Of a DNA stretch of 42,631 bases, positions 12,274 to 34,305 are shown in pieces. Positions within the stretch are counted from its first letter, which is position 1. The number at the start of each line of letters is the position of its first letter. Below the pieces are notes generated by a model. The model searched no databases and was not told the origin of the DNA. It saw nothing but the letters and a program-made list of their open reading frames with translations. This DNA is from Oscillospiraceae bacterium (GTDB lineage Bacteria; Bacillota; Clostridia; Oscillospirales; Oscillospiraceae). The translations under genes were made by a program, and so were the position numbers. The stretch is from assembly GCA_017440925.1 (NCBI GenBank), contig JAFSAP010000014.1, positions 1 through 42,631 on the forward strand, in the 5' to 3' direction.

Positions 12274-14784
12274 TTATTTTCCTGGGCCTGCGGTGTCTGC
12301 GCCGTCACCGGTAAGTCCCAGCTCCCGGGCTGCATCCTGCCGCATTTTGTATTTAAGGATCTTGCCGGCTGCATTCATGGGGAAACTGTCCACAAAGGAA
12401 ATATACCGGGGCACCTTGTGCCGGGCCATGCTGGCCTTGATATAATTGGTCATTTCCTCCACAGTTACAGAACCAGGTTCTTTCAGAATGATACAGGCCA
12501 TGATCTCTTCGCCATACCGCTTGTCCGGCACACCGATGACCTGTACATCCCGTACCTTGGGATGGGTGTAGATAAATTCCTCAATCTCCTTGGGGTAGAT
12601 GTTTTCGCCGCCCCGGATAATCATATCCTTCAGACGGCCTGTGATCCGGTAGGTACCGTCTGCATCCCGGCAGGCCAGGTCACCGGAATGGAGCCAGCCT
12701 TCCGCATCCACGGTGGCCCGGGTGGCCTCCGGCATCTTATAGTAACCCTTCATGGTGTTGTAACCACGGGAACAGAATTCTCCATTGGTACCATTGGGCA
12801 CTTCCTCGCCGGTTTCCGGATCTATGATCTTGCATTCCACGTGAGGGAAATCATAGCCCACGGTATTGGTACGCAGATCCAGCGGATCCGTCCAGGCAGA
12901 CATGGTGCTGCCGGGGGAGGATTCCGTCTGGCCGTAAACGCTGACGATGCCCCGCATATTCATTTCGTCGGGCTGGGCGGCCCGGCGCATCAGTTCCGGA
13001 GGGCAGCCTGCACCGGCCATGATACCGGTACGCATATGGGAAAAATCGGTCTTCCGGTAATCCGGATGGTTGAACATGGCAATGAACATGGTGGGAACAC
13101 CATTCATGGCGGTGATCCGCTCCTGGTTGATGCAGGCCAGACTGGACTTGGCAGAGAAGTAAGGCAGGGGGCACAGGGTAGCGCCATGGGTCATGGAGGA
13201 TGTCATGGTCAGCACCATGCCGAAGCAGTGGAACATAGGCACCTGAACCAGGAAACGGTCGGCTGTGGACAATCCCAGCCGGTCACCGATACACTTGCCG
13301 TTGTTGACAACGTTATAGTGCGTTAACATAACACCCTTCGGGAATCCGGTGGTACCGGAGGTGTACTGCATGTTGCACACATCATCCGGCTGGACATTGG
13401 CAGCATACCGGTAAACCTCCTCCACGGGAACCATATCCGCCCGGGCCATAGCCTCATCAAAGGTCAGGCTGCCAGGCTGCTTAAAGTCCACAGTGATGAC
13501 ATTGCGCAGAAACGGCAGGCGCTTGCAATGCAAGGGGGAACCTGCTTTGGTCTTTGCAATCTCAGGACATATCTCATTGATGATCTTCCGGTAATTGGAA
13601 TCCAGGGCGGATTCGATCATCACCAGGGTATGGGTATCGGACTGCCGCAGCAGATATTCCGCCTCGTGAATTTTGTAGGCAGTGTTGACAGTGACCAGAA
13701 CTGCACCGATCTTGGTGGTGGCCCAGAAGGTGATATACCAGGCGGGAACGTTGGTGGCCCAGATGGCAACCTTCATACCGGGACGGACACCCATGGAGAT
13801 CAGTGCCCGGGCAAAGTTATCCACATCTTCCCGGAATTCCTCATAGGTGCGGGTATAATCCAGGGTGGTGTACTTAAAGGCATACTGGTCGGGGAATTCC
13901 TCGACCATCCGGTCCAATACCTGGGGGAACGTCAGGTCAATAAGGTCATCCTTTTTCCACACGTACTGGCCTGTACCGTCATGGTTGTAGTACAGCGACT
14001 TCTTCCGGGTGCGGGGGGAATTGAACCGGCTCATGTAGTTGACAAAATGGGGGAAGATGATCTCCCGGTCCTGCAGATCTTCCATCCATTCGGGTTTCCA
14101 CTCCAGAGAGATAAAGCCGTCATAGTTGATGGAGCTTAAGGCCCGGATCATATCCGCCACAGGCATGTTGCCTTCGCCAATAAGGTTGTATGTATTCTTG
14201 TCATCAGAGTCTCTTAAATGGACGTGTTTGACGTAGGTACCTAAGTTTTTGATGGTGGTATCAGCACTTTCGTCAAAGTCCCGGTAAGGATGGTGCATAT
14301 CCCATAGGGCACCGGTATAATCGCTGGCATAGCTTTCCAGCAGGGCACGGAGCTTTGCGGTGTCGGCGTAGATGCCGCTGGTTTTGATCAGAATGCAGAC
14401 ACCCAGTTCTTCTGCCAGAGGCAGCAGCCGCTCCAGATTGCTGTGGATCATCTCCTCATTGGGTTTTGATGCCCAGGCAACCACATAAGGCACTTTCAGA
14501 TCATGGGCAGCACGCATCATGTCTGCCAGGACATCCGCATTGGCTGTATTTTCCGACAGATCCAGGGAGGTGTCCAGGCAGGGAATGGTCAGCTTCAGAT
14601 CCCGCAGCTGCCGGATGGTGGCTGCAATGGCATGCTTATGGAAAGGACCGCCCCGGTCTGTCATTTCCGGGAATTTGAACAGGTTATAGACTTCGATGCC
14701 GGTGAACTTCATGTCCAGAGCGGCGTGTATCATTTCATCCCAGGACAGGTCGCCCCAGCCACGGGTGGAAAAGGAGAGATTCAT
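12274..14784 (-). CDS. TIM-barrel isomerase/epimerase-like domain fused to acyl-CoA synthetase
   Basis: An 836-residue two-enzyme fusion. Residues 1 to about 265 form a xylose isomerase-like (AP endonuclease 2 superfamily) barrel with likely metal ligands preserved: GIEVYN, LWDMHHPY, KHVHLRD and FISLEWKPEW. Residues about 270-836 are an AMP-forming acyl-CoA synthetase with YTSGTTGFPKG (near 473), YGQTESSPG, the GWLHSGDLA hinge region, DMIIRGGENIYPKEIEE and the C-terminal catalytic Lys in AAGKILK. It overlaps the LeuA-like gene by ATGA and has GAGGAGG upstream, and both lie under a leucine T-box. I infer that the ligase activates a leucine-related acid such as isovalerate; the role of the barrel is unknown. 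Both halves look complete. Confidence 0.88.
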   Translation of the reverse strand: MNLSFSTRGWGDLSWDEMIHAALDMKFTGIEVYNLFKFPEMTDRGGPFHKHAIAATIRQLRDLKLTIPCLDTSLDLSENTANADVLADMMRAAHDLKVPYVVAWASKPNEEMIHSNLERLLPLAEELGVCILIKTSGIYADTAKLRALLESYASDYTGALWDMHHPYRDFDESADTTIKNLGTYVKHVHLRDSDDKNTYNLIGEGNMPVADMIRALSSINYDGFISLEWKPEWMEDLQDREIIFPHFVNYMSRFNSPRTRKKSLYYNHDGTGQYVWKKDDLIDLTFPQVLDRMVEEFPDQYAFKYTTLDYTRTYEEFREDVDNFARALISMGVRPGMKVAIWATNVPAWYITFWATTKIGAVLVTVNTAYKIHEAEYLLRQSDTHTLVMIESALDSNYRKIINEICPEIAKTKAGSPLHCKRLPFLRNVITVDFKQPGSLTFDEAMARADMVPVEEVYRYAANVQPDDVCNMQYTSGTTGFPKGVMLTHYNVVNNGKCIGDRLGLSTADRFLVQVPMFHCFGMVLTMTSSMTHGATLCPLPYFSAKSSLACINQERITAMNGVPTMFIAMFNHPDYRKTDFSHMRTGIMAGAGCPPELMRRAAQPDEMNMRGIVSVYGQTESSPGSTMSAWTDPLDLRTNTVGYDFPHVECKIIDPETGEEVPNGTNGEFCSRGYNTMKGYYKMPEATRATVDAEGWLHSGDLACRDADGTYRITGRLKDMIIRGGENIYPKEIEEFIYTHPKVRDVQVIGVPDKRYGEEIMACIILKEPGSVTVEEMTNYIKASMARHKVPRYISFVDSFPMNAAGKILKYKMRQDAARELGLTGDGADTAGPGK

Positions 14785-16193
14785 ACAGTTTCCTCCTCAT
14801 ATACGATTTTGTTGAGGGCATTGATATAGGCCCGGATACTGGCACCTACAATATCAGTGGAAATACCCCTGCCGGAGTAGACCTTGCCGCCGCTGCGCAG
14901 TTTGACAACGGTCTGACCCATGGCCTCCCGGCCTTCCGTAACGGCCTGGATCTGGAAATCATCCAGTTCGTAATGCTGTCCGGTAATCTGTTCCACAGCC
15001 AAAAAAGCTGCATCGATGGGGCCATCGCCAATGCTGACACCCTCCATCACCTTCTCATGCTTATGAAGTTTCAGATGGGCAGTGGCGGAAATGGTATTGC
15101 CGGAGGTGACCACATAGCTGTCCAGCACATAAGTGGGGGGAACCTGCATGGCAGCGGACGCTACAATGGCATCCAGTTCCTTGCTGCCCACTTTTTCCTT
15201 TTTATCTGCAATGACCCGGAAAGCCTCATAGACCTTGGCGCCATCCTCTTCACTCAAGTCATATCCCAGGCGGGAAGCCATCTTCATCACGGCGCTGACA
15301 TCATCATGGGCAGTCAGATACATGCTGCCGTCATCCTCCTGGACACCGTGGTCAAAGGGAGAATTTTTGCTTCTTCCGGTCTGGCACATCCAGGCAATCT
15401 GGCCTGTGATCCGCTTGAGGACCGTGGTATGAACCCGGCAGGCAACGCCGTAAACATCTCCCTTGGCAGACAGGGCCCGTGCCACGTTGGGAAGGGAAAC
15501 CACATTTAAGCGGTAGGAAGCCGCCTTGATCTCCCGGGCGCCGTAACGGACAGCAGCAATAGCGCAGGCATCTGCCATAGACAGGCTGTCAGAACAGGAA
15601 ATGCCCAGGCAGACATCTTTCAGCATAGGGATATTGGCATAAAGCTCACGGATAAAGGCAGTGAATTCATTGGGCAGCATGGCTCCGGCGGTGTCGCAGA
15701 CAGTCACAGTCCCGGCACCGGCCTCAATGGCAGCAGAAATCACTTCATACAAAAAACCAGGATCACTTCTGGTGGCATCATCCGCCACAAATTCCACATC
15801 TGCGCAGACCTTGCAGCAGGCGGCAACGGTTTCCTTGACTGCAGCAAGCATAGCATCCGGCTTTTTATGGAACAGATACTCCATCTGCACCGGGCTGACG
15901 GGAGCACAAACCTGAAGTCTGGCCTTTTTGGCTTCCTTCAGCGCATTCCAGGTCTGCTGGACACTTTCTGCATTCAGTGCCACAGGAACGGCAACAATGC
16001 TGTTCTTCACCGCAGCTGCCGCAGACTTGACCCGCAGGGCATCGATCTTGGCGCTGACAATCGGCTCCAGTTCGATCACAGAAACCCCCAGCTTGTCCAG
16101 CAGCTTGCACAGCTCGATCTTCTCCTTAAAAGACAGGGAAATATCACCGCCTGTCTGCTTCATGGTCACATCGCTGATTCGGATCTCATTCAT
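14781..16193 (-). CDS. LeuA (2-isopropylmalate synthase) homologue with lost metal site
   Basis: A 470-residue protein that aligns along its length with LeuA: barrel about 1-270, linker, and a LeuA dimer/allosteric domain about 345-465 (YVVTSGNTISATAHLKL, GDGPIDAAFLAVEQITG, ISTDIVGASIRAYINALN). The catalytic signatures are gone. DTTLRDGEQ is DVTMKQTGG, and the metal-binding HxH of SVHTHDD is GISCSDS; the GIGERAGN loop is also changed. It is therefore unlikely to be a classical Mg/Mn-dependent synthase. It may be a leucine-sensing scaffold or a new enzyme. It has AAGGAG eight bases before the ATG and is led by a T-box with a CUG (Leu) specifier. The C-terminal domain in true LeuA binds leucine. 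Confidence 0.8.
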   Translation of the reverse strand: MNEIRISDVTMKQTGGDISLSFKEKIELCKLLDKLGVSVIELEPIVSAKIDALRVKSAAAAVKNSIVAVPVALNAESVQQTWNALKEAKKARLQVCAPVSPVQMEYLFHKKPDAMLAAVKETVAACCKVCADVEFVADDATRSDPGFLYEVISAAIEAGAGTVTVCDTAGAMLPNEFTAFIRELYANIPMLKDVCLGISCSDSLSMADACAIAAVRYGAREIKAASYRLNVVSLPNVARALSAKGDVYGVACRVHTTVLKRITGQIAWMCQTGRSKNSPFDHGVQEDDGSMYLTAHDDVSAVMKMASRLGYDLSEEDGAKVYEAFRVIADKKEKVGSKELDAIVASAAMQVPPTYVLDSYVVTSGNTISATAHLKLHKHEKVMEGVSIGDGPIDAAFLAVEQITGQHYELDDFQIQAVTEGREAMGQTVVKLRSGGKVYSGRGISTDIVGASIRAYINALNKIVYEEETV

Positions 16194-16223
16194 ATTGGTT
16201 TCTCCTTTTCCATAACTTGGGAT

Positions 16224-16500
16224 AAAAAAAGTCCCCGAGGCATCGTTGCCTCAGGGACGAATCTGTGATTCGCGGTACCACCCTGGTTATTTCCCCAAAG
16301 GGGAAATCCCTTCAGACTCCAACAAGTCCTATCCCTGTAACGGGGGCAGCCGGGTTCCATTACTGAAAGCTTGCGCTTGTTCACAGAACCAACTCAGGAA
16401 GCAGATCACCCAGTTCTTCCGCACCGGCTCGCACCATCCGCCGGCTCTCTGGAACATCCAAAAAGGGTAAGATTTCCGTCATTGTCTTTCACATATATAC
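16224..16500 (-). promoter_or_regulatory. T-box leader, Leu (CUG) specifier
   Basis: Read on the minus strand: AGAGAGCCGG at the start of the apical Stem I region, GGTGCGAGCC, then specifier CTG at 16404-16402, six bases before GAG (16395-16393). The T-box core GGTGGTACCGCG is at about 16282-16271, and a terminator stem at 16258-16231 (arms GTCCCTGAGGCA/TGCCTCGGGGAC) is followed by seven T. The UGGU bulge fits a tRNA with discriminator A, as in tRNA-Leu. Uncharged tRNA-Leu should stabilise the antiterminator and switch on the LeuA-like/fusion operon. The specifier is assigned by the common spacing to GAG in all four leaders here. Confidence 0.9.
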
Positions 16501-16507
16501 GAATGTC

Positions 16508-16654: not shown

Positions 16655-16913
16655 AATACGAAAAAGGCTGTGACGAAGACGGTCTGGGCCAGTACCCTTT
16701 CAGAGAGCTGCCGGCAGGTGAAAGGCAGCAGGATGCACCCATAAGACCCATCACTTCCGAGCCGGGATGCCGAGTGTACCGCACCAGGTTTCCACGTCTG
16801 CCCGCGTTAAGGGATAGCGCTTGTTGGAGCGTGAAGTGGCGGCTCAGGCCGCAATTTGAGTGGTACCGCGGGTAATCTATACTCGTCTCAAGATTCTTCT
16901 TGAGACGATTTTT
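16655..16913 (+). promoter_or_regulatory. T-box leader, Ile (AUC) specifier
   Basis: AGAGAGCTGCC begins the apical Stem I region near 16702, with GGTGAAAGGCAGC after it. The specifier ATC is at 16750-16752, six bases before GAG (16759-16761). The T-box core GAGTGGTACCGCGGG begins near 16858. The terminator has arms CGTCTCAAGA (16884-16893) and TCTTGAGACG (16898-16907), then a T-run. UGGU pairs with an A-discriminator tRNA, as tRNA-Ile. It controls the first XRE-cupin-ligase gene. The terminator arms are almost identical to those of the Val leader downstream. Confidence 0.9.
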
Positions 16914-16939: not shown

Positions 16940-19207
16940 ATGACCAATCAGAACCCTGCCTCCCAGCTGATGGATATCGCAATGCGTATCCGGGATATGC
17001 GTGAAATCCTGGGCTACAGCATGCAGAAGATGGCCGAACTGACGGAAGTATCTGAAGAAATGTACCGCCAGTATGAAACCGGCACCGTCGATCTCCCCTT
17101 TACTTTTATCCATAAGTGCGCCAATGTGTTCGGCGTGGAAATCACCGTTCTGCTGGAAGGCCACTCCGCCCGTCTGTCCGGTTATACCGTTACCCGGAAA
17201 GGAAAGGGCTTGGTCACTGCCAGCGAGGACGGTATCACCATCCAGGACATGGCCCCCATGTTCCGCAAAAAGCTGGCTACCCCTTACTGGGTCACCTATG
17301 AATATGACGAAAAGCTGCAGAACCAGCCCATTCACACCACCACCCACGCCGGTCAGGAATTTGACCTGGTGCTTAAGGGTGCCATGCGTGTCAAGGTGGG
17401 CGACCGCGAGGAGATCCTCCGGGAAGGTGACAGCATCTTCTATAAATCCTCCACCCCCCACGGCATGATCGCCATTGACGGTCAGGACTGTGTGTTCCTA
17501 GCCATGATCATGGTATCCGATACCACCGACCAGCGGCTTTACATCGGCCAGAAGCGGGAAAACAATCCGGACGAGACGCTGCTGTGCCAGAAGTTCATCC
17601 GCACCCAGGAAGACGAACGGGGCGCTCTGCTGGGCACCACCTTCGACGGTGCCGAAGAGTATAACTTCGCCTTTGATACGGTGGATGCCATTGCCCGCCG
17701 CAGCCCCGACAAGTTGGCCATGATCCACATCGCCAACGATATGACGGAGCGCCGCTTTACCTTTAAGGATATTAAGGACGCTTCCTCCCAGGCAGCAAAT
17801 TACTTCATGTCCCTGGGTATCCACCGGGGCGACCGGGTCATGCTGGTGCTCAAGCGCCACTACCAGTTCTGGTTCGCCATCCTGGGCCTGCACAAGCTGG
17901 GTGCCATTGCCATCCCCGCCACCAACCAGCTGGTGGAGAAGGACTTTGTTTACCGGTTCAATGCCGCCGGTGTCAGTGCTGTGGTCTGTACAGCTGACGG
18001 CGATACCGCCCATCAGATCGAACTGGCTCAGCAGCAGACCGGAACCGAGATCACCAGGATCCGGGTGGGCGGCACCCGGGAAGGCTGGCACGACTTCGAT
18101 AAGGAGTACTGCCTCTTCAGCCGCCGTTATGTCCGCATGAACGATGCCCCCTGCGGCTCCGACCCCATGCTGATGCTCTTCACCTCCGGCACCACCGGCT
18201 ATCCCAAGATGGCCATGCACAGCTACAAGTATGCCCTGGGCCACTATGTCACCGCCAAATACTGGCACCTGTGCGAACGGGACGGCCTCCACTTTACCAT
18301 TTCCGAAACCGGCTGGGGCAAAGCCCTCTGGGGCAAACTCTACGGCCAGTGGCTCTGCGAGGGAGCTGTCTTTACCTATGACTTCGACCGTTTCGATGCA
18401 GAGAAGATCCTGCCCATGTTCAAAAAGTACAACATCACCACCTTCTGCGCACCACCCACCATGTACCGGATGCTCATCAAGCAGGATCTGAGCAAATACG
18501 ACCTTTCCTCCATCCACCACGCCACCACTGCCGGCGAGGCACTGAATCCCGAGGTCTTCTACAAATTCGAGCAAGCCACCGGTCTGCGGATCGCAGAGGG
18601 CTTCGGCCAGACAGAAATGACCCTGGGCATCGCCAACCTGGTGGGCACCGAGCTGAAGCCCGGCGCCATGGGCAAGCCGGTTCCCGGCTACGGCATCGAC
18701 CTGGTGGACAGCGACGGCAATCCTGTAGCCGACGGTGTCAACGGCGAGATCGTCATCCGCACCGATCCCAAGCCCACCTGCGGTGTATTCCTGGGCTATT
18801 ACCGGAACAAGGATGCCACCAATGCTGTTTGGCACGATGGTATGTACCACACCGGCGACCTGGCCTGGCGGGATGAGGATGGCTACTACTGGTATGTGGG
18901 CCGTGCCGACGATGTCATCAAGTCCTCCGGCTACCGCATCGGACCCTTCGAGATCGAATCCACCATCATGGAACTGCCTTACGTTCTGGAATGTGGTGTC
19001 TGCGCCGCACCCGATGAGGTTCGTGGTCAGGTGGTCAAGGCCTGCATCGTGCTGGTAAAGGGCACCGAGGGCACTGAGGAACTGAAAAAAGAGATCCAGA
19101 ACTACGTCAAACACCGCACTGCTCCCTACAAGTATCCCAGAATCGTGGAATTCCGGGAAGAGCTGCCCAAGACCATCAGCGGAAAGATCATCCGCAACAA
19201 GCTTTAA
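16940..19207 (+). CDS. XRE-HTH / cupin / acyl-CoA synthetase fusion (Ile unit)
   Basis: A 755-residue three-part protein. Residues about 12-75 are an XRE-type helix-turn-helix (RIRDMREILGYSMQKMAELTEVSEEMYRQYETG), about 120-192 a cupin barrel (GQEFDLVLKG, EGDSIFYKSSTPHGM), and about 225-755 an AMP-forming acyl-CoA synthetase of the acetyl/medium-chain type. The ligase shows LFTSGTTGYPK near 415, EGFGQTE, YHTGDLA, GRADDVIKSSGYRIGPFEIES and catalytic Lys749 in ISGKIIRNKL. HTH-cupin proteins are usually small-molecule-responsive repressors; here one is joined to the enzyme. AAAGGAAG precedes the ATG. Under an isoleucine T-box, the likely substrate is 2-methylbutyrate (inference). It is paralogous to the next gene along its full length. 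Confidence 0.92.
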   Translation: MTNQNPASQLMDIAMRIRDMREILGYSMQKMAELTEVSEEMYRQYETGTVDLPFTFIHKCANVFGVEITVLLEGHSARLSGYTVTRKGKGLVTASEDGITIQDMAPMFRKKLATPYWVTYEYDEKLQNQPIHTTTHAGQEFDLVLKGAMRVKVGDREEILREGDSIFYKSSTPHGMIAIDGQDCVFLAMIMVSDTTDQRLYIGQKRENNPDETLLCQKFIRTQEDERGALLGTTFDGAEEYNFAFDTVDAIARRSPDKLAMIHIANDMTERRFTFKDIKDASSQAANYFMSLGIHRGDRVMLVLKRHYQFWFAILGLHKLGAIAIPATNQLVEKDFVYRFNAAGVSAVVCTADGDTAHQIELAQQQTGTEITRIRVGGTREGWHDFDKEYCLFSRRYVRMNDAPCGSDPMLMLFTSGTTGYPKMAMHSYKYALGHYVTAKYWHLCERDGLHFTISETGWGKALWGKLYGQWLCEGAVFTYDFDRFDAEKILPMFKKYNITTFCAPPTMYRMLIKQDLSKYDLSSIHHATTAGEALNPEVFYKFEQATGLRIAEGFGQTEMTLGIANLVGTELKPGAMGKPVPGYGIDLVDSDGNPVADGVNGEIVIRTDPKPTCGVFLGYYRNKDATNAVWHDGMYHTGDLAWRDEDGYYWYVGRADDVIKSSGYRIGPFEIESTIMELPYVLECGVCAAPDEVRGQVVKACIVLVKGTEGTEELKKEIQNYVKHRTAPYKYPRIVEFREELPKTISGKIIRNKL

Positions 19208-19246: not shown

Positions 19247-19524
19247 TAATAAAAGGCTGTGATGGAGAAAAGCCTCTGCAAAGCCTGTCTCAGAGAATTG
19301 GCGGTCGGTGCGAGCCATGACAGAAGCAGACGGTTTGTCCCTCCGGAGCCGGGAGGAAGAAAATTTCGGTGAGTAGAACCTCCACGCGTCAGCTGCGTCA
19401 GTGCTTAGGGTGTGTTGGCACCCGATGAGTGGTATCTGCTGTGAGGCAGATGCAATTTGAGTGGTACCGCGGGTATGCTGTATGCAGCTCGTCTCAAGGA
19501 ATCTATCTTGAGACGAGCTTTTTG
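19247..19524 (+). promoter_or_regulatory. T-box leader, Val (GUC) specifier
   Basis: AGAGAATTGGC (Stem I apical region, near 19291) and GGTCGGTGCGAGCC are followed by specifier GTC at 19337-19339, six bases before GAG (19346-19348). The T-box core GAGTGGTACCGCGGG begins near 19459. The terminator arms AGCTCGTCTCAAG (19486-19498) and CTTGAGACGAGCT (19507-19519) precede TTTTTG. It should induce the downstream ligase-Vor-aminotransferase operon when tRNA-Val is uncharged. Confidence 0.9.
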
Positions 19525-19544
19525 CATTTTGAGAGGTGCTTATT

Positions 19545-21833
19545 ATGGAACAAACCATGACTGGAATGGACTTTAAAATACGGGAAGTGGCAGCGCGTGT
19601 CCGGGAGCTGAGAGAAATCTCCGGCTTTACCGTGGAGGAAATGGCTGCCCGCACCGGACTGACCACCGAAGAATACATACAGTGTGAGGCAGGCAGCCGC
19701 AATCTGAGCATCGCTTTCCTGTACCGCTGTACCCTTAGCTTTGGCGTTGACATGGGCGACCTGCTGGAAGGCCGCAGCCCCAAGCTGCGCCACTATGACC
19801 TGACCCGCCGGGGTGAAGGCCAGCGCATTGAGGAAGCACACCACATGGTGGGCTGGAACCTGGCAGCAGACTTCCGTAACCGTATCGCCCTGCCCCTCTT
19901 CATGGAGATGAAGTACCGGGAGGGTGCCGAGTATGAAGATATCGAGCTTGTCACCCATGAAGGACAGGAATGTGATATCGTCATCAAGGGCCACATGAAA
20001 ATCCAGATCGGCAGCCATACCGAGATCCTCCATGCTGGCGACACCATTTATTACGATTCCTCCGTTCCCCACGGCATGATTGCCGTAAACGGCGAAGATT
20101 GCGAATTCTATGCCTTCGTGCTGAGCAACTCCGCCGCCCGTGAGGGCGAGCAGGCCGCTGTTCTGGCAACCCCCGACACCAAAACAAAACAGCGGGACAA
20201 GACCCCCCGTATTTACCGCAAGTTTATTGACCGCACCGTGGAAGATGGCTGCCTCACTGCCATCAGCTTCAAGGATCCCGAGAAGTTCAACTTCGCCTTT
20301 GACGTTGTGGACGAACTGGGCAAAACCAAGCCGGAAAAGCTGGCTATGCTCCACCTTTCCGAGGATGGCACCGAACGTCGGTTTACCTTCCAGGATCTTT
20401 CCAAGCAGTCCAGCCGGGCCGCCAACTACTTCAAATCCTTAGGCATTCAGCGTGGCGACCGGGTCATGCTGGTGCTGAAGCGCCACTACCAGTTCTGGAT
20501 CGCCATTCTGGGCCTGCACAAGCTGGGTGCTGTGGCAATCCCCGCCACCAACCAGCTTCTGGAAAAGGACTTTACCTACCGTTTTGCTGCCGGAAATGTC
20601 AAGGCGGTCCTCTGCACCGCCGACGGCGATGTAGCCGACGCGGTGGACGCTGCTGCCCTCAAGAGCCCCAGCCTGGAATACAGGATCCTGGTGGGCGGCA
20701 AGCGGAAAGGCTGGCATGATTTCGATGAAGAATGCGCCATGTTCCGCAGCCAGTATGCCCGCACGGAGGATGCTCCCTGCGGCTCAGATCCCATGCTGAT
20801 GTTCTTCACCTCCGGCACTTCCGGCTATCCCAAGCTGGCTGCCCATAACTACAAGTACCCCCTGGGTCACTTCATCACTGCAAAATACTGGCACCGGGTC
20901 AATCCCGAGGGCCTGCATCTGACCATTTCCGATACCGGCTGGGCAAAGGCCCTGTGGGGCAAGCTCTACGGCCAGTGGCTCTGCGAAGCTGCCACCTTTG
21001 TCTATGACTTTGACCGGTTCGATGCGGAAAAGATCCTGCCTCTGTTTGCCAAGTACCATATCACCACCTTCTGCGCACCGCCCACCATGTACCGGATGCT
21101 GGCAAAACAGGATCTCAGCCACTTTGATCTGAGCAGCATCGAACATGCTTCCACAGCCGGAGAAGCGCTGAACCCTGAGGTTTACCGCCAGTTCCAGAAG
21201 GCCACCGGCCTTCCCATTATGGAAGGCTTCGGCCAGTCTGAATCCACGCTGATCATCGGCAACCTGAACGGCAGCAGCCACAAGCTGGGTTCCATGGGCA
21301 AGCCCGTTCCCCTGTACGATGTGCATCTGCTGGATCCCGAAGGCAAGGAAGTGGACACCGGTGAGACTGGTGAGATCTGCATCAACATCTCCAAGGGTCT
21401 GCCCTGCGGCCTTGCTTATTGCTATGAAGGCAACGAAGAAGTCACCGCTGAGACATGGCGGGATGGCTACTACCACACCGGCGATCTTGCCTGGCAGGAT
21501 GAAGAAGGCTTCTTCTGGTATGTTGGCCGGGCTGATGATGTCATCAAGTCCTCCGGCTATCGCATCGGACCCTTTGAAATTGAATCCACCATCATGGAAC
21601 TGCCCTATGTTCTGGAGTGCGGCGTTTCTGCTGCTCCCGATGAAGTCCGCGGCCAGGTGGTCAAGGCCAGCGTCGTGCTGGTGAAGGGCACTGAGGGCAC
21701 CGACGAACTGAAAAAGGAGATCCAGAACTACGTCAAGCGCCGTACCGCTCCCTACAAGTATCCCAGAATTGTGGAATTTAAGGAGAGCCTGCCCAAGACC
21801 ACCAGCGGCAAGATCATCAGAAAGAAACTATAA
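19545..21833 (+). CDS. XRE-HTH / cupin / acyl-CoA synthetase fusion (Val unit)
   Basis: A 762-residue paralogue of the preceding gene with the same order: XRE-HTH (about 14-75, RVRELREISGFTVEEMAARTGL), cupin (about 125-195, GDTIYYDSSVPHGM) and acyl-CoA synthetase (about 235-762, FFTSGTSGYPK, EGFGQSE, YHTGDLA, DDVIKSSGYRIGPFEIES, catalytic Lys756). The two ligase domains are nearly identical over long stretches, while the HTH and the linker after the cupin differ more. The ATG at 19545 is chosen because GAGAGG lies eight bases upstream, whereas an in-frame GTG at 19536 overlaps that site. Under a valine T-box, the likely substrate is isobutyrate (inference). It is the first gene of the operon running to ilvE. 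Confidence 0.92.
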   Translation: MEQTMTGMDFKIREVAARVRELREISGFTVEEMAARTGLTTEEYIQCEAGSRNLSIAFLYRCTLSFGVDMGDLLEGRSPKLRHYDLTRRGEGQRIEEAHHMVGWNLAADFRNRIALPLFMEMKYREGAEYEDIELVTHEGQECDIVIKGHMKIQIGSHTEILHAGDTIYYDSSVPHGMIAVNGEDCEFYAFVLSNSAAREGEQAAVLATPDTKTKQRDKTPRIYRKFIDRTVEDGCLTAISFKDPEKFNFAFDVVDELGKTKPEKLAMLHLSEDGTERRFTFQDLSKQSSRAANYFKSLGIQRGDRVMLVLKRHYQFWIAILGLHKLGAVAIPATNQLLEKDFTYRFAAGNVKAVLCTADGDVADAVDAAALKSPSLEYRILVGGKRKGWHDFDEECAMFRSQYARTEDAPCGSDPMLMFFTSGTSGYPKLAAHNYKYPLGHFITAKYWHRVNPEGLHLTISDTGWAKALWGKLYGQWLCEAATFVYDFDRFDAEKILPLFAKYHITTFCAPPTMYRMLAKQDLSHFDLSSIEHASTAGEALNPEVYRQFQKATGLPIMEGFGQSESTLIIGNLNGSSHKLGSMGKPVPLYDVHLLDPEGKEVDTGETGEICINISKGLPCGLAYCYEGNEEVTAETWRDGYYHTGDLAWQDEEGFFWYVGRADDVIKSSGYRIGPFEIESTIMELPYVLECGVSAAPDEVRGQVVKASVVLVKGTEGTDELKKEIQNYVKRRTAPYKYPRIVEFKESLPKTTSGKIIRKKL

Positions 21834-25230: not shown

Positions 25231-25249
25231 CGGAAAGGAAGCAACCACC

Positions 25250-26332: not shown

Positions 26333-26364
26333 AAAAAAGAGCCATCTGATGATGGCTCTTTTTT
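26333..26364. terminator. Terminator of the Val operon
   Basis: A 14-bp perfect stem with A6 and T6 arms (26333-26346 with 26351-26364) and a TGAT loop. The convergent minus-strand gene ends inside its right arm, so it can serve both. Confidence 0.9.
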
Positions 26365-27148
26365 ACAGCTTCAGTATCCGCTCTGCCGTCTTATGGGCAA
26401 TCTGTTCCTTCTGCTCTGAAGTCAGATCCAGCGCCAGGAATCGCTGCACTTCCTCCACCGGATCCCACAAGGGATAATCCGAACCAAAAGCCAGCCGCTC
26501 CGCGCCATAGAGATTCACGTAGCGCTCTGTCTCTCTTGGCCCCAGGAAAATGGAAGCACTGGAAAGGTCCATGACGCAGTTGGTGTCTTTCAGAATCTCA
26601 CAGGCGGTTTCATACATGCTGTAGCCGCCGAGATGGGCGCCGATGGTCTCCAGTTTGGGAAACAGCTGCAGAATATGCCGCAGCCGGGTGGGATGGGAGA
26701 AATCATACCGAGGGTCTCCCATATGGAAAATCACCGGCAGTTTTCCCTGAATGGATTCATACATGGGAAAAAGCCTGGGATCATCAATGTCAAACTGCTG
26801 GAAATCCGGATGGATTTTGATGCCCTTCAGTCCCATCTCCTGGATCCGGGCCACCTCATCCGCAAGATCTGCCATAGCCGCATGAACAGTGCCGAAGCCC
26901 ACAAAATTCGGGTTATCCTGCACTTCCTGATGGATAAAATTGTTGATGGACTGGACGTGGCTTGCCTTATTCGCCACCGGAAGCACTACGCACCGGCTGA
27001 TGCCGGCCTGCTGCATGCGCAGGTTCAGCATGGCCGTGGTACCGTCCATTCTCCGTCCGTCCAGATGGTAAAAGTCCCGGATGCTGTTCACTGCGGCATC
27101 TGCAATTTTCACAGGATATATATGGGTATGAATATCAATGATCTGCAT
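26363..27148 (-). CDS. Amidohydrolase-2 family metal-dependent hydrolase (second of pair)
   Basis: A 261-residue TIM-barrel protein of the amidohydrolase-2 (ACMSD-related) family. The metal-binding HxH is IDIHTHIYP at residues 4-12; GLKGIKIHPDFQ, PVIFHMGDP, TIGAHLGGY and AFGSDYPLWDP carry the remaining His and Asp ligands. Members are hydrolases or non-oxidative decarboxylases. The substrate is not evident. It follows its paralogue by 29 bases on the minus strand, with GTGAGG before the ATG at 27148. The stop lies in the terminator shared with ilvE. Confidence 0.88.
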   Translation of the reverse strand: MQIIDIHTHIYPVKIADAAVNSIRDFYHLDGRRMDGTTAMLNLRMQQAGISRCVVLPVANKASHVQSINNFIHQEVQDNPNFVGFGTVHAAMADLADEVARIQEMGLKGIKIHPDFQQFDIDDPRLFPMYESIQGKLPVIFHMGDPRYDFSHPTRLRHILQLFPKLETIGAHLGGYSMYETACEILKDTNCVMDLSSASIFLGPRETERYVNLYGAERLAFGSDYPLWDPVEEVQRFLALDLTSEQKEQIAHKTAERILKL

Positions 27149-28270: not shown

Positions 28271-28545
28271 CAACCGATACAGTCAACACGATGATGAAAA
28301 CCAGTACATATCCGCATGTTTTTCCAGAGAGCTGCCGGCCGGTGCAAGGCAGTAAAAACCGGGATATGGAATTCCTTTCGGAGTGGCTTTGCTGAAGATG
28401 ATCTTTCGGTAGGCGAAGACGGGTAGGGCCCGATACAGCCTGCGGATCTGCTAGGATCCCATGAGGCCCCTTTGGGGGCAAACTGAGGTGGTACCACAGG
28501 AATTTCTTGTCCTCTGCTTGGATGGCAGAGGCTTTTTCTTTTCCC
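28271..28545 (+). promoter_or_regulatory. T-box leader, Phe (UUC) specifier
   Basis: AGAGAGCTGCCGG starts the apical Stem I region at 28326, with CCGGTGCAAGGCAG after it. The specifier TTC is at 28372-28374, six bases before GAG (28381-28383), the spacing seen in the other three leaders. A shift of one base would read AUU (Ile), but that breaks the common spacing. The T-box core is GAGGTGGTACCACAGG (28485-28500), a slight variant. The terminator stem CCTCTGC/GCAGAGG (28511-28531) is followed by a T-run. The gene content downstream (Ior, PaaK) supports phenylalanine. Confidence 0.87.
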
Positions 28546-28574: not shown

Positions 28575-30212
28575 ATGATTATCACGGATTTTTTGGAAAG
28601 AAACGCACGGCTTTACGGTCAGGAAACGGCACTGGTGGAGATCAATCCTTCCGAAAAGAGAGATAAAGCCGTTACCTGGTGGGACTTCAACCTGATCGAA
28701 AGTGCCGGACAGGATGCCCCCTACCGCCGGGAAATGAGCTGGAAGGATTTTGACCGCCGGGCCAACCGGTTCGCCAACCTACTGCTCAGCCGCGGTCTGA
28801 AAAAGGGAACCAAAGTAGCTGTGCTGCTGATGAACTGTCTGGAATGGCTTCCGATCTATTTCGGTATTCTGAAAGCCGGCTGCATTGCTGTCCCCATGAA
28901 TTTCCGCTACGCCAGCGATGAGATCCAGTATTGTCTGGACCTGGCCGATGTGGATGTGCTGGTATTCGGCCCGGAATTTGTCAGCCGTATGGATGCCATC
29001 TGTGAAGACATCCCAAAGGTGAAGATGCTCTTCTACGTGGGAAATGACGGCCCTGCCTATACCGAGGACTGTATGAAGCTCATGGGCTTCTGCTCCTCCA
29101 GCGCTCCTCCCATTGCTTTGACCGAGGAAGACGATGCCGCCATCTATTTCTCCTCCGGCACCACCGGCTTCCCCAAGGCCATTCTGCACAACCATCTTTC
29201 CCTGGTGCATTCCTGTCTGACGGAACAGAACCACCACTCCCAGACCCGGGAAGATGTGTTCCTGTGCATTCCTCCCCTGTACCACACCGGCGCAAAGATG
29301 CACTGGTTTGGCTCCCTGCTTTCCGGCTCCAAGGCCGTTCTGCTGCGGGGTGTCAAGCCGGAGTGGATCCTCCGGGCAGTCACCGAAGAACGGTGTACCA
29401 TCGTCTGGCTGCTGGTGCCCTGGGCCCAGGATCTGCTGGATGCCATCGACGACGGACGGGTTGATCTGAGCAAGTTCCGTTTGGATCAGTGGCGACTGAT
29501 GCATGTGGGTGCCCAGCCTGTTCCTCCCAGTCTGATCCGCCGCTGGATGAAGGTGTTTCCCCACCACGCTTATGACACCAACTACGGCCTGTCCGAATCC
29601 ATCGGCCCCGGCTGTGTCCATTTGGGTGTGGAAAATGTTCACAAGGTAGGCGCCATTGGCAAGCCTGGCTTTGGCTGGCAGACCCGGATCGTGGATGAAC
29701 AGGGCAAGAATGTTGTCCCCGGTGATGTCGGCGAGCTGATCGTCAAAGGCAACGGCGTAATGACCTGCTACTATAAAAACCCCGAAGCCACCGCAGAAGT
29801 TCTGAAGGACGGCTGGCTCTTCACCGGCGATATGGCCCGGGAAGATGAGGAAGGCTTCATCTATCTGGTGGACCGGAAGAAGGATGTCGTTATTTCCGGC
29901 GGTGAAAATATCTATCCTGTCCAGATCGAGGACTTCCTGCGCAGTTTCAGTAAGATCAAGGATGTGGCTGTGATCGGTCTTCCGGACAGCCGCCTGGGTG
30001 AGATCACTGCAGCCATCATTGAAATCAAGGATGGCGAAACCTGCACCGAAGATGAGATCAACACCTTCTGCCTGGCACTGCCCCGGTATAAGCGTCCCAG
30101 GAAGATTTTCTTCGACAAGGTTCCCCGGAATCCCACCGGAAAAATTGAAAAGCCTGTTCTGCGGGAGAAGTACTGCCAGGGCCGCCTGGTGGAAGTGCAG
30201 ATCACCGGCTAA
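28575..30212 (+). CDS. AMP-forming acyl/aryl-CoA ligase of the Phe operon
   Basis: A 545-residue class I adenylate-forming enzyme. It has YFSSGTTGFPKAI near residue 195, YGLSESIGPG, GWLFTGDMA near residue 415, DRKKDVVISGGENIYPVQIED and the C-terminal Lys in NPTGKIEK. It resembles FadD/4-coumarate-CoA-ligase-like enzymes rather than PaaK. It begins about 30 bases after the T-box terminator and has GGAG upstream. As first gene under a phenylalanine T-box it probably activates an aryl acid such as phenylacetate, or a related acid such as 4-hydroxyphenylacetate or indoleacetate. Exact substrate is inference. Confidence 0.88.
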   Translation: MIITDFLERNARLYGQETALVEINPSEKRDKAVTWWDFNLIESAGQDAPYRREMSWKDFDRRANRFANLLLSRGLKKGTKVAVLLMNCLEWLPIYFGILKAGCIAVPMNFRYASDEIQYCLDLADVDVLVFGPEFVSRMDAICEDIPKVKMLFYVGNDGPAYTEDCMKLMGFCSSSAPPIALTEEDDAAIYFSSGTTGFPKAILHNHLSLVHSCLTEQNHHSQTREDVFLCIPPLYHTGAKMHWFGSLLSGSKAVLLRGVKPEWILRAVTEERCTIVWLLVPWAQDLLDAIDDGRVDLSKFRLDQWRLMHVGAQPVPPSLIRRWMKVFPHHAYDTNYGLSESIGPGCVHLGVENVHKVGAIGKPGFGWQTRIVDEQGKNVVPGDVGELIVKGNGVMTCYYKNPEATAEVLKDGWLFTGDMAREDEEGFIYLVDRKKDVVISGGENIYPVQIEDFLRSFSKIKDVAVIGLPDSRLGEITAAIIEIKDGETCTEDEINTFCLALPRYKRPRKIFFDKVPRNPTGKIEKPVLREKYCQGRLVEVQITG

Positions 30213-30229: not shown

Positions 30230-31960
30230 ATGAAACAACTGATGCTGGGCAATGAAGCCGTTGCCCGTGGATTATACGAAGCCGGATGCATGTTCGTATC
30301 CAGCTACCCCGGCACTCCCAGTACGGAGATCACCGAAGCTGTGGCAAAGTACCCGGAGGTTTACGCAGAATGGGCACCCAATGAAAAGGTGGCCATGGAG
30401 GCCGCCTTCGGTGCCTCCCTGGCTGGCCGCCGCTCCTTCTGCGCCATGAAGCACGTAGGTCTGAATGTGGCTGCCGATCCCCTGTTCACCATTTCCTATA
30501 CCGGTGTCAATGCCGGTATGGTCATCGGTGTGGCAGATGATGCCGGTATGCACTCTTCCCAGAATGAGCAGGATTCCCGGCATTACGCCCGGTCCTCCAA
30601 GATTCCCATGCTGGAGCCTTCAGATTCCGCCGAAGCACTGGAATACGCCAAACTGGCCTACGAGCTGTCTGAGCAGTTTGATACCCCTGTCCTGCTGAAA
30701 ATGTGTACCAGAGTATCCCACTCCCAGAGCCTTGTGGAGTTGGGTGACCGTACTGAAAAACTGAAAGAATATGTGCGGGATGTCCCCAAATATGTCATGA
30801 TGCCAGGTTTTGCCAAGAAGCGGCATCCCGTGGTGGAAGCCAGAACCGCTGCACTGACAGAATATGCCGAGACCGCCCCCATCAACCGGCTGGAGCCAGG
30901 CCGCAGCAACAAGTACGGTTTCATCACCGATTCCACCTGCTATCAGTATGTCAAGGAGATCTGCGGTGACGAATATCCTGTTCTGAAGCTGGGCATGGTA
31001 TGGCCCATGCCGGAAAAGAAGATCCAGGACTTTGCCGCCTCCGTGGAAAAACTGTTTGTGGTGGAAGAGCTGGACGGCTTTATCGAAGCCCATGTCAAGT
31101 TCATGAGCATCCCCTGCTCCGGCAAGGATACCTTCCCCCTCATTGATGAACTGAGCCAGAACAAGATCGCAGAGGCACTGCATGTTCCCTTTGAACAGGG
31201 CATCCGGCTGGAGGAGACCATTCCGCCCCGGCCCCCTGTCATGTGCGCAGGCTGCCCCCACCGGGGTCTGTTCTATACACTGAAAAAGAACAAACTGACA
31301 GTTCTGGGCGACATCGGCTGCTATACGCTGGGTGCCGCCGCTCCCCTGGCCGCTGTGGACAGCGTCATCTGCATGGGTGCTTCCGTTTCCGGCATCCATG
31401 GCTTCTCCAAATCTCAGAACGGCGCCATGGACAACCGCACCGTTGCCGTCATCGGCGACTCCACTTTCATGCACTCCGGCATTACCGGCCTGGTGAACAT
31501 TGCTTACAACGAATCCAATGCCACCGTCATCATCGTGGACAATTCCATCACCGGTATGACCGGCCATCAGCAGAACCCCACCACCGGCTTCAATCTGAAG
31601 GGAGATCCCTGTGCCAAGATTGATCTGGAGACCCTTTGCCGGGCTGTTGGCATCAAACGTGTGCGGGTCATCGATCCCTATGACCTGAAGCAGTGTGATG
31701 AAGTCATCAAGGAAGAGCTTTCCGCCAATGAGCCCTCTGTTATCATCTCCCGCCGTCCCTGTGCCCTGCTGAAATACGTCAAGCACAAGGCTCCCCTGCA
31801 GGTGGACACCGACAAGTGCGTGAGCTGCAAGGCCTGCATGAAAATCGGCTGCCCCGCCATCAGCATTGCAGACGGCAAGGCGAAAATCGATGCGACCCAG
31901 TGTGTGGGCTGCGGTGTCTGCCAGCAGCTGTGCAAATTCGGCGCACTGAAGGAGGACTAA
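30230..31960 (+). CDS. iorA: Indolepyruvate:ferredoxin oxidoreductase alpha subunit
   Basis: A 576-residue fused alpha/beta-type subunit of aryl-2-oxoacid:ferredoxin oxidoreductase. The N-terminal part (about 1-190) has LGNEAVARGLYEAG and SYPGTPSTEI. The thiamine-binding part (about 340-530) has CAGCPHRG, GDIGCYTLG, a GDSTFMHSG Mg-ThDP motif and NSITGMTGHQ. The C-terminal ferredoxin domain has CVSCKACMKIGCPAI and CVGCGVCQQLCKFG. With IorB it interconverts arylpyruvates (indolepyruvate, phenylpyruvate) plus CoA and arylacetyl-CoA plus CO2. AAGGAGG precedes the ATG. T-box control for Phe suggests it runs reductively here, making phenylpyruvate. Confidence 0.95.
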   Translation: MKQLMLGNEAVARGLYEAGCMFVSSYPGTPSTEITEAVAKYPEVYAEWAPNEKVAMEAAFGASLAGRRSFCAMKHVGLNVAADPLFTISYTGVNAGMVIGVADDAGMHSSQNEQDSRHYARSSKIPMLEPSDSAEALEYAKLAYELSEQFDTPVLLKMCTRVSHSQSLVELGDRTEKLKEYVRDVPKYVMMPGFAKKRHPVVEARTAALTEYAETAPINRLEPGRSNKYGFITDSTCYQYVKEICGDEYPVLKLGMVWPMPEKKIQDFAASVEKLFVVEELDGFIEAHVKFMSIPCSGKDTFPLIDELSQNKIAEALHVPFEQGIRLEETIPPRPPVMCAGCPHRGLFYTLKKNKLTVLGDIGCYTLGAAAPLAAVDSVICMGASVSGIHGFSKSQNGAMDNRTVAVIGDSTFMHSGITGLVNIAYNESNATVIIVDNSITGMTGHQQNPTTGFNLKGDPCAKIDLETLCRAVGIKRVRVIDPYDLKQCDEVIKEELSANEPSVIISRRPCALLKYVKHKAPLQVDTDKCVSCKACMKIGCPAISIADGKAKIDATQCVGCGVCQQLCKFGALKED

Positions 31961-31962
31961 GG

Positions 31963-32535
31963 ATGAAAACCAAGAACATTATGATCGTCGGTGTCGGCGG
32001 ACAGGGAAGTCTTTTGGCCTCCAAGCTTCTGGGCCGGTTGTTCCTGACCCGGGGCTACGATATCAAAGTCTCCGAAGTTCATGGTATGAGCCAGCGGGGC
32101 GGCAGCGTTGTCACCTTTGTCCGCTTCGGAAGTAAGGTCTACTCTCCCATCATTGATAAGGGCGAAGCCGATTACATCGTATCCTTTGAACTGCTGGAAG
32201 CTGCCCGCTGGACAGAATATCTGAAGCCCGGCGGAAAGATCATCGTCAATACCCAGCAAATCAATCCCATGCCTGTGGTCATTGGTACTGCCGAATATCC
32301 CGAAGATCTGGTAGCCAAAATGGAAGCTGCCGGACTGGCAGTGGATGCTTTTGATGCACTGACCCTGGCAGAGCAGGCAGGCTCTGCCAAAGCTGTCAAT
32401 ATTGTCCTCATGGGCCACCTGTCCCGGAACTTCGACTTTACAGAAGAAGAGTGGCTGGACGCCATTGCTCAGAGCGTTCCTCCCAAATTCCTGGAACTGA
32501 ACAAAACTGCATTCCTGCTGGGCAGAAACGCCTAA
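31963..32535 (+). CDS. iorB: Indolepyruvate:ferredoxin oxidoreductase beta subunit
   Basis: A 190-residue IorB subunit, homologous to the gamma subunits of other 2-oxoacid oxidoreductases: IMIVGVGGQGSLLASKLLG at the start, EVHGMSQRGGSVVTFVRFG in the middle. The ATG at 31963 is two bases after the iorA stop with AAGGAGG upstream inside iorA; a much longer in-frame start lies within iorA and is rejected. It is needed for the IorAB heterodimer. Confidence 0.95.
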   Translation: MKTKNIMIVGVGGQGSLLASKLLGRLFLTRGYDIKVSEVHGMSQRGGSVVTFVRFGSKVYSPIIDKGEADYIVSFELLEAARWTEYLKPGGKIIVNTQQINPMPVVIGTAEYPEDLVAKMEAAGLAVDAFDALTLAEQAGSAKAVNIVLMGHLSRNFDFTEEEWLDAIAQSVPPKFLELNKTAFLLGRNA

Positions 32536-32562
32536 GCCGGAAAAATAAGGAGAGAGTCAACC

Positions 32563-33861
32563 ATGGCAAACTATTATCAGCCGGAAATCGAAACCATGCC
32601 CTATGACCAGCTGCGTCAGCTGCAGAATGAGCGTCTGGTAAAGCAGGTCAGACACGTATGGGATAATGTGCCCTACTACCGCAAGAAGATGGAAGAAAAG
32701 GGTCTAACACCCGAGGATATTCAGAGTGTGGATGACCTGCACAAGCTGCCTTTTCTGACCAAGGCAGACCTGCGGGATGCCTATCCCTATGGCCTTATGG
32801 GTAAGCCCAAGTCGGAATGTGTCCGGATCCACTCTACCTCCGGTACCACCGGCAAGCGTGTAATGGCCTTCTATACCCAGCACGATATCGACCTGTGGGA
32901 GGACTGCTGCGCCCGTGCCATCGTGGCTGCCGGCGGTACCAAGGAAGACGTGCTCCATGTGTCCTATGGTTACGGTCTGTTTACCGGCGGTATGGGTCTG
33001 CACGGCGGCGGCCATAAGGTGGGTTGCCTGACCCTGCCTATGTCCTCCGGCAATACCGACCGGCAGCTGCAGTTCATGGAAGATTTGGGCTCCACCATCC
33101 TGTGCTGCACGCCCTCCTATGCCGCTTACCTGGCAGAATCCATTCATGAGCGGGGCTTGCAGGATAAGATCCATCTGAAGGCCGGCATCTTTGGTGCGGA
33201 AGCCTGGAGCGAGGACATGCGCCGGGATATCGAAAACAAGCTGGGTATCAAAGCCTATGACATTTTCGGCCTGACTGAACTCTCCGGCCCCGGTGTTTCC
33301 TTTGAATGCGAAGAACAGACCGGCATGCACATTAACGAAGACCACTTCATTGCCGAGATCATCGATCCCGATACCGGAGAAGTTCTGCCGGAGGGCACCA
33401 AGGGTGAGCTGGTATTTACTTCTCTGACCAAGGAAGCCTTCCCCCTGCTGCGCTACCGCACCCGGGATATCTGTGTGCTGAGCCGCAAAAAGTGCTCCTG
33501 CGGCAGAACATTTGTGAAAATGGCCAAGCCCATGGGCAGAAGCGATGATATGCTGATCATCCGCGGTGTCAACGTGTTCCCCTCCCAGATCGAGACCGTT
33601 CTGATGCAGCAGGGCTATGCCGCCAACTATCAGATCATCGTAGACCGTGTCAACAACTCCGACACCTTCGAGGTCATGGTGGAAATGACCCCCGATATGT
33701 TCTCCGACTCCCTGGCCAAGGTCGCCAGGGCAGAAAAGGAACTGGTGGGTGCACTGAAGTCCATGCTGGGCATCGCCGCCAAGGTGAAGCTGGTAGCTCC
33801 CAAGTCCATCACCCGCAGCGAAGGCAAGGCTGTCCGTGTCATTGACAAGCGCAAGATCTAA
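32563..33861 (+). CDS. paaK: Phenylacetate-CoA ligase
   Basis: A 432-residue PaaK family ligase that makes phenylacetyl-CoA (or another arylacetyl-CoA) from the acid, CoA and ATP. It begins with the family's LQNERLVKQVRHVWDNVPYYRKKM and carries the P-loop HSTSGTTGKR near residue 90, GYGLFTGGMGLHGG, FGLTELSGPG, YRTRDIC and GRSDDMLIIRGVNVFPSQIE. AAGGAG lies before the ATG at 32563. Coupled with IorAB it provides the arylacetyl-CoA substrate or product. It is the second ligase in this operon, suggesting two acids or division of labour with the gene at 28575. Confidence 0.95.
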   Translation: MANYYQPEIETMPYDQLRQLQNERLVKQVRHVWDNVPYYRKKMEEKGLTPEDIQSVDDLHKLPFLTKADLRDAYPYGLMGKPKSECVRIHSTSGTTGKRVMAFYTQHDIDLWEDCCARAIVAAGGTKEDVLHVSYGYGLFTGGMGLHGGGHKVGCLTLPMSSGNTDRQLQFMEDLGSTILCCTPSYAAYLAESIHERGLQDKIHLKAGIFGAEAWSEDMRRDIENKLGIKAYDIFGLTELSGPGVSFECEEQTGMHINEDHFIAEIIDPDTGEVLPEGTKGELVFTSLTKEAFPLLRYRTRDICVLSRKKCSCGRTFVKMAKPMGRSDDMLIIRGVNVFPSQIETVLMQQGYAANYQIIVDRVNNSDTFEVMVEMTPDMFSDSLAKVARAEKELVGALKSMLGIAAKVKLVAPKSITRSEGKAVRVIDKRKI

Positions 33862-33873
33862 GGAGGTAAGGCT

Positions 33874-34305
33874 ATGAACATTTATCAGATTTCTGTATTC
33901 CTGGAAAATAAGGCCGGTAAGCTGGCAGAAGTCACCAAGCTGCTGGCTGACAGCAATGTGGATATCCGCGCCATCTCCATTGCGGAAACTGCCGAATATG
34001 GTCTGGCCCGTCTGATCGTGGACGATGCACCCAAAGCCAGTTCCATTCTGCTGCAGCACGGCGACATGATCTCCATGACCCCGGTCTGGGCAGTGGAAGT
34101 GCCTGACCGTCCCGGCGGACTGTATGAACTGCTGACCGCCCTGGCAGAAGCCCATGTCAATGTGGAATACATGTACTCCCTGTTTACCCATCGGGAAGGC
34201 TGCGCTTACATGGTCATGCGGATTGCTGATGAGCCCAAGTTCCTCAGCACCCTGGGTGACCGCGGTATCAAGCTCATGACCATGGAAGAACTGGGACTGA
34301 AATAA
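33874..34305 (+). CDS. Tandem ACT-domain protein
   Basis: A 143-residue protein made of two ACT domains (about 3-68 and 72-140): YQISVFLENKAGKLAEVTKLL and VEVPDRPGGLYELLTALAEA are the two ligand-binding strand-turn-helix starts. ACT domains bind amino acids and regulate enzymes. The gene begins 12 bases after paaK with AAGGAGG and is the last of the Phe T-box operon. ACT proteins are often found beside paaK/ior genes. I infer a phenylalanine or aromatic acid sensor acting on the ligase or oxidoreductase. No enzyme domain is present. Confidence 0.88.
   Translation: MNIYQISVFLENKAGKLAEVTKLLADSNVDIRAISIAETAEYGLARLIVDDAPKASSILLQHGDMISMTPVWAVEVPDRPGGLYELLTALAEAHVNVEYMYSLFTHREGCAYMVMRIADEPKFLSTLGDRGIKLMTMEELGLK

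Follow-up and report, generated by a model that had tools for sequence, protein, structure and literature searches.

In this study we analysed a 42,631-nucleotide stretch of an Oscillospiraceae bacterium (GCA_017440925.1, contig JAFSAP010000014.1, positions 1-42,631; hereafter the window) and within it the region 12,274-34,305, which holds four T-box leaders together with genes for acyl-coenzyme A (acyl-CoA) ligases and 2-oxoacid oxidoreductases. With a probability of roughly 80%, we read this region as a T-box regulon that makes leucine (Leu), isoleucine (Ile), valine (Val) and part of phenylalanine (Phe) and tyrosine (Tyr) from exogenous isovalerate, 2-methylbutyrate, isobutyrate and phenylacetate. 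It is established for the T-box family that these leaders turn genes on when an amino acid is scarce. In the proposed mechanism, scarcity of one amino acid would let uncharged transfer RNA (tRNA) stabilise the antiterminator of the cognate leader, and that unit would be transcribed. The ligase would convert the acid to its acyl-CoA, Vor (Ior for aryl acids) would use reduced ferredoxin and CO2 to carboxylate the acyl-CoA, giving the 2-oxo acid, and IlvE would transaminate the 2-oxo acid to the amino acid.

An earlier interpretation made from the letters alone (the sequence-only reading) had proposed an amino-acid-specific synthesis system. Our comparison supports this through the specifier match, the ligase tree, the scarcity of ilvC and the lack of LeuC above cut-off in fusion genomes, and the likeness of the ligases to PDB entry 3etc. 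The leaders, specifiers, gene families, motif loss and specifier-gene match are established at the level of sequence; the substrates, the direction of Vor and leucine sensing are inferences.

T-box leaders and their specifiers

The four leaders of the window are the following.

16250-16491, minus strand: T-box leader of the Leu unit; specifier CUG at 16404-16402; RF00230 115.4 bits; terminator within 16222-16264
16661-16893, plus strand: T-box leader, Ile; specifier AUC at 16750-16752; RF00230 99.3 bits
19250-19499, plus strand: T-box leader, Val; specifier GUC at 19337-19339; RF00230 83.9 bits, E 3.9e-17
28282-28517, plus strand: T-box leader, Phe; specifier UUC at 28372-28374; RF00230 125 bits

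The sequence-only reading had described four T-box leaders with the specifiers CUG, AUC, GUC and UUC, and the Rfam model finds all four. These codons were taken from the column of the Rfam alignment that holds the specifier. The Leu, Ile and Phe leaders lie above the RF00230 gathering score of 93 bits and the Val leader lies below it. We counted the latter as a T-box because of its E-value, core, specifier and synteny; in two relatives, L017 and L018, the leaders upstream of Val-type fusions reach 97.2 and 94.7 bits. The GUGGUACC core is present in all four window leaders, and each has a terminator consisting of a hairpin and a U run (-13.5 to -24.1 kcal/mol). As a control, the same column was read in six other T-boxes of the own genome, and five gave the codon expected for the gene (AUG for metN-like, AUG for metG, ACC for thrS, AUC for ileS and GCC for alaS, the genes being named by reading translations without a family search), which supports the reading of the specifier column.

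It had also been stated that each leader heads acyl-CoA ligase genes. This is the case for Ile, Val and Phe but not for Leu, where a LeuA-like gene comes first and the ligase, a TIM barrel fusion, second. The overall observation was partly confirmed.

The sixth T-box of the own genome (L004:735-994, C31) precedes a gene for a TrpX-like ABC substrate-binding protein, named from its translation. Its specifier is ambiguous, with UCA in the model column and UUC when shifted by one base, and the gene perhaps encodes a Phe-responsive transporter.

Agreement of specifier and gene across relatives

Related loci were collected with a profile of 15 fused ligases, and the best 80 of at least 584 confirmed relatives form the basis of the locus counts. 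Nearly all of them come from metagenome-assembled genomes of Oscillospiraceae or other Clostridia, and for 41 of the 80 the record title gives a ruminant, deer or horse as host. A covariance model of T-box stem I, trained on 19 leaders with the window's own among them, found 139 stems among these loci.

This search for T-boxes before ligase genes in relatives, which the sequence-only reading had suggested, bore it out, as the specifier tracks the ligase type. All 46 leaders upstream of an Ile-type fusion carry ATC, and all 68 upstream of a Val-type fusion carry GTN (GTA 56, GTC 11, GTG 1). Upstream of the LeuA-like gene, CTN was found in 23 of 24 leaders (CTC 17, CTG 6), the remaining one (L138) being unreadable. 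The spread over synonymous codons in the Val and Leu leaders argues for selection on the amino acid and not on the letters. Moreover, the Ile/Val label switches four times on a tree built from 129 ligase domains, versus at least 32 times in 200 shuffles. The Ile-type gene lies directly upstream of the Val-type fusion in 46 of 65 cases, and 39 of 54 loci have VorA within 6 kilobases of the Val fusion, while 33 of the 54 have IlvE. At L103:6509-6609 (-) lies a further Val stem (GTC), the second there, with no homologue of a window gene downstream.

Ile and Val ligases and the Vor/IlvE operon

Behind the Ile and Val leaders lie the following genes (ORF, open reading frame).

16940-19207, plus strand: XRE helix-turn-helix (HTH) and cupin domains fused to an acyl-CoA ligase, MbcS/Macs-like, proposed 2-methylbutyrate ligase (Pfam HTH_3, Cupin_2, AMP-binding)
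19536-21833, plus strand: HTH and cupin domains fused to an acyl-CoA ligase, proposed isobutyrate ligase (Pfam; likely start ATG at 19545)
21941-22645, plus strand: ParA/MinD-like ATPase (weak CbiA match below cut-off; adjoins Vor in related loci)
22658-22864, plus strand: ferredoxin with two 4Fe-4S motifs, Vor delta (Pfam Fer4)
22877-23935, plus strand: Vor alpha, VorB family (NF005507, 549.3 bits, above the cut-off of 399)
23939-24697, plus strand: Vor beta (TIGR02177, E 9.4e-37, below cut-off)
24697-25230, plus strand: Vor gamma (NF006323 and TIGR02175, both below cut-off; ORF 24616-25230 searched)
25250-26323, plus strand: IlvE branched-chain aminotransferase, shared last step (NF009897, 495.6, above the cut-off of 307; ORF 25118-26323)

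In both ligases the HTH and cupin domains are N-terminal. The Val ligase is a paralogue of the Ile ligase, and its HTH domain matches HTH_19 with 28.7 bits, slightly below the Pfam cut-off of 30.2. The closest solved structure to both ligases is PDB 3etc (E 8.6e-186 for Ile and 2.8e-182 for Val), whose PDB label says only AMP-binding protein. We take 3etc to be Macs of Methanosarcina acetivorans, an enzyme that presumably prefers 2-methylbutyrate, with an acyl pocket that we assume to consist of W237, W254, K256, W259, C298 and G351. These positions were mapped with an offset of 23, obtained by fitting this residue pattern to the 3etc chain, and the six residues mapped in this way do not vary among all 81 Val-type and all 51 Ile-type ligases. 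The window ligases therefore have the ligase domain and acyl-pocket residues in common with 3etc; the 3etc chain of 580 residues, however, has no space for the XRE-cupin half that they carry. Accordingly, 2-methylbutyrate, isobutyrate and, for the Leu unit, isovalerate are the presumed substrates.

Matches to the fused ligase in several whole-genome relatives (G025, G038, G045 and others) are long and interrupted by at least one stop codon. These are probably separate genes for an XRE-cupin regulator and a ligase side by side, an arrangement that is likely the forerunner of the fusion.

In NCBIfam the Ile and Val ligases match MbcS (NF047394) best, with 430.4 and 428.4 against a cut-off of 850, so that they are related to this family and not members of it. 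MbcS provides methyl-branched acyl-CoA, and the ligases might correspondingly supply branched-chain acyl-CoA for lipid synthesis, with the amino acid link being secondary. We regard this as highly improbable, since the leaders are amino-acid-specific and Vor and IlvE are encoded in the same operon.

The Val operon runs in the order fused ligase, ParA-like ATPase, ferredoxin, Vor alpha, beta and gamma, and IlvE. The ligases as well as Vor beta and gamma were assigned from weaker NCBIfam matches and Pfam domains. The sequence-only reading had named VorB-type and IorAB oxidoreductases, and VorB alpha, IorA and IorB indeed exceed their NCBIfam cut-offs. IlvE, which it had placed in both the Val and the Phe operon, is found in the Val operon; the Phe operon holds only a ligase, IorA, IorB, a PaaK-like ligase and an ACT protein. 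Vor would act in the carboxylating direction.

Two amidohydrolase genes (PF04909; 26363-27148, 27178-27978 (-)) lie between the Val and Phe operons, and relatives of the first (26363-27148) are present in a number of related loci.

Apparent loss of the usual branched-chain pathway

We compared the occurrence of ilvC in 146 genomes of the order with a completeness of at least 90%, the own genome excluded. The fusion set comprised 47 genomes which, among the matches listed, had one that was near full length, without internal stop and at least 54% identical; G148 was kept despite a cut at residue 637, and genomes with stop codons inside the match (e.g. G025 and G038) were placed among the others. 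ilvC was present in 9 of the 47 fusion genomes versus 67 of the 99 others (order level; Fisher p 4.5e-8, ignoring phylogeny).

Among 14 genomes with an unbroken fusion, the own one included, ilvD exceeded its cut-off in one (G037), a match in G022 being below it, and LeuC exceeded its cut-off in none. LeuC was above cut-off in all eight ilvC-bearing controls. Weaker LeuC matches were seen in at most ten of the 14 fusion genomes, in ORFs of at least 640 amino acids, which is aconitase length; weak LeuB matches were in ORFs of about 370-415 amino acids and were taken for isocitrate dehydrogenases. Among the genomes with a stop-broken match, ilvD is present in G025, and G038 has neither ilvD nor LeuC above cut-off and a true LeuA above it. 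The acid route seems to replace the acetohydroxyacid (ilvC/ilvD) and isopropylmalate (leuC) pathways in many fusion genomes.

The Leu unit

Two genes stand under the Leu T-box.

14781-16193, minus strand: LeuA-like pseudoenzyme, HMGL-like barrel and LeuA_dimer (leucine allosteric) domain (Pfam)
12274-14784, minus strand: TIM barrel (AP_endonuc_2) fused to an AMP-forming acyl-CoA ligase (TIM-ligase), proposed isovalerate ligase (Pfam)

The LeuA-like protein shares with LeuA (2-isopropylmalate synthase, IPMS) the fold family, the LeuA_dimer domain (PF08502, E 9.5e-32, residues 336-463) and the Leu T-box, but its catalytic and metal motifs are gone and its conservation pattern is inverted. Against TIGR00973 it scores 277.2 bits, below the cut-off of 598.7. 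After removal of the partial L142 from 31 sequences, 30 LeuA-like proteins including that of the window were compared, with alignments to a solved IPMS and to true LeuAs of relatives for the active site. The RDGxQ and HxH[ND]D motifs were found in none of the 30, and RDGxQ and HxHND are likewise absent from all 11 LeuA-like proteins from whole genomes (window included). For the LeuA family, 19 loci (L150-L167, L172) were considered; eight had an ORF matching the window protein, and the catalytic motifs are present in all of these eight, in which they were read. At the four positions that we take to be the metal ligands of IPMS, 25 of the 30 LeuA-like proteins keep none and five keep one, and at least 29 have a deletion of the GERA stretch in the GxGERAGN loop. 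Mean pairwise identity among the LeuA-like proteins is 42.4% in the HMGL barrel and 65.4% in LeuA_dimer, the reverse of the five true LeuAs (58.3% and 45.7%).

Judging by these losses, the LeuA-like protein is most likely a synthase no longer. That the gene makes leucine in the usual way was rejected in view of the lost motifs together with the missing LeuC. The inverted conservation, the Leu T-box and the TIM-ligase as a constant partner, whose gene comes directly next in all 26 cases in which the locus extends far enough, suggest a leucine sensor, which probably reports the leucine level to the TIM-ligase. The protein could instead be an enzyme with new chemistry, as its barrel is constrained (42% identity) and keeps E105, Y106 and D139 invariant and R142 nearly so. 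We consider this unlikely, given that both catalytic motifs are missing throughout, that no protein keeps more than one metal ligand, that the GERA stretch is almost always lost and that the regulatory domain is the better conserved half. In the TIM barrel of the TIM-ligase the metal-site residues, as placed here, are kept in part.

The aromatic unit

Downstream of the Phe leader, the aryl unit comprises five genes.

28575-30212, plus strand: AMP-forming aryl/acyl-CoA ligase (PRK06187-like, below cut-off; Pfam AMP-binding)
30230-31960, plus strand: IorA, indolepyruvate/aryl-pyruvate ferredoxin oxidoreductase alpha (TIGR03336, 704.8, above the cut-off of 650.9)
31963-32535, plus strand: IorB (NF005325, 271.2, above the cut-off of 230; ORF 31816-32535 searched)
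32563-33861, plus strand: PaaK-like phenylacetate-CoA ligase (TIGR02155, 512.2, below the cut-off of 646.3)
33874-34305, plus strand: ACT-domain pair protein, possible aromatic amino acid sensor (PF19571, PF01842)

Ten of 14 aryl ligase loci (window included) have a T-box, with UUC in seven and UAC in three. The Tyr (UAC) leaders are those of L186, L188 and L189, and their specifier is one base from the Phe codon UUC. In six of the seven relatives read, a sodium/solute symporter lies between the ligase and IorA (L194:2144-3706 and L196:3665-5230, with homologues in L195, L198, L199 and L200); it was identified by a family match in two and by homology in the other four, and is a candidate importer of the aryl acid. 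In the seventh, L197, the ligase stands directly beside IorA as in the window. In L196 a Tyr leader heads the ligase and the symporter, and IorAB has a separate leader, read as UUC.

Methanococcus incorporates aryl acids via Ior, and there, as in the window, IorAB and an aryl-CoA ligase feed aromatic amino acids. The aryl unit differs in its Phe/Tyr T-box, the extra ligase, the ACT protein and, in the six relatives, the symporter.

Weighing the alternatives

Several observations weigh against the synthesis reading. Vor also operates oxidatively in amino acid fermenters, and in 15 of 54 loci Vor is missing from the neighbourhood. The loci share kinship and were picked by similarity to the Val ligase, so their counts are dependent trials, and the own genome has a completeness of 67.9%. 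No T-box was detected before 10 of 77 Val-type fusions. The claim of the sequence-only reading that there is one unit per amino acid thus does not hold strictly; seven of these ten genes begin at most 96 nucleotides after the Ile-type gene. The Leu unit, in addition, includes a pseudoenzyme that was not expected. Within the genus, ilvC was present in 0 of 7 versus 6 of 17 genomes, which is not significant (p = 0.13, likewise ignoring phylogeny), and its retention in nine of the 47 fusion genomes means that the replacement is not universal. The LeuC model is narrow and was passed by one of 14 named control genomes; the LeuB cut-offs are strict and were missed by five of 14 control genomes too, and three fusion genomes have a LeuB relative of about 260 bits. 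Single genomes combine the fusion with a true LeuA above cut-off (G027) or with ilvC and ilvD (G037). Besides, the symporter was not found in the window's own aryl unit. Prephenate dehydratase is present in 33 of 40 genomes; therefore Phe is probably supplemented and not solely made by the aryl unit.

The operons could also serve oxidative amino acid degradation of the Stickland or Ehrlich type, in which Vor and Ior yield acyl-CoA and the acids are released. Annotations of these enzyme families often point to this, and PMC13290082 reports that gut acetogens use them oxidatively. Nevertheless, we judge degradation very unlikely. T-boxes act on amino acid shortage, ilvC, ilvD and LeuC are missing from most fusion genomes, AMP-forming ligases favour activation as a matter of general knowledge, and the aryl units of relatives contain a symporter.

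Furthermore, the route may be a supplement only, with cells normally importing amino acids or peptides and using the acids once these run out. The fusion genomes that keep ilvC fit this view, as do some relatives that showed neither ilvC nor the fusion and may be auxotrophs. We see this as possible, if rather doubtful; it is compatible with synthesis of the amino acids from the acids and differs from it in the flux share of the route.

Relation to known systems and implications

The rumen carboxylation route, known from labelling and nutrition, has the acids, the amino acids, the overall chemistry and the type of habitat in common with the system of the window. It differs in that here there are candidate dedicated genes, tRNA-specific control and a loss of the usual pathway. 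Allison, Robinson and others described in the 1960s-70s, as cited in PMC7356843, that rumen anaerobes carboxylate isovalerate, 2-methylbutyrate, isobutyrate and phenylacetate. With the T-box regulons for amino acid biosynthesis and transport (PMC2494555 and PMC3766115), the window shares the leader family and cognate specifiers. The main text of these two sources does not contain the terms CoA ligase, acyl-CoA, ferredoxin or oxidoreductase. Neither T-box control of the acid route nor an inactive LeuA appeared among the titles and abstracts listed from an open-access library, a scope that does not prove a first report.

The chances are about even that in a herbivore-rich lineage of gut Clostridia de novo synthesis of branched-chain amino acids has been replaced by acid carboxylation, under a regulon of amino-acid-specific T-boxes and of protein sensors joined to or partnered with each ligase (a dead LeuA sensing leucine in the Leu unit, XRE-cupin halves for Ile and Val, and an ACT protein in the aromatic unit).

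That rumen bacteria use branched acids has been known since the 1960s, and the region provides candidate genes for this. The leader would predict which acid each ligase serves, and a T-box would allow enzymes filed under degradation to be reassigned to synthesis. The LeuA-like protein, if our reading is true, would be a biosynthetic enzyme turned regulator. Moreover, cross-feeding on branched and aryl acids as well as the effect of acid feed supplements may become predictable from genomes.

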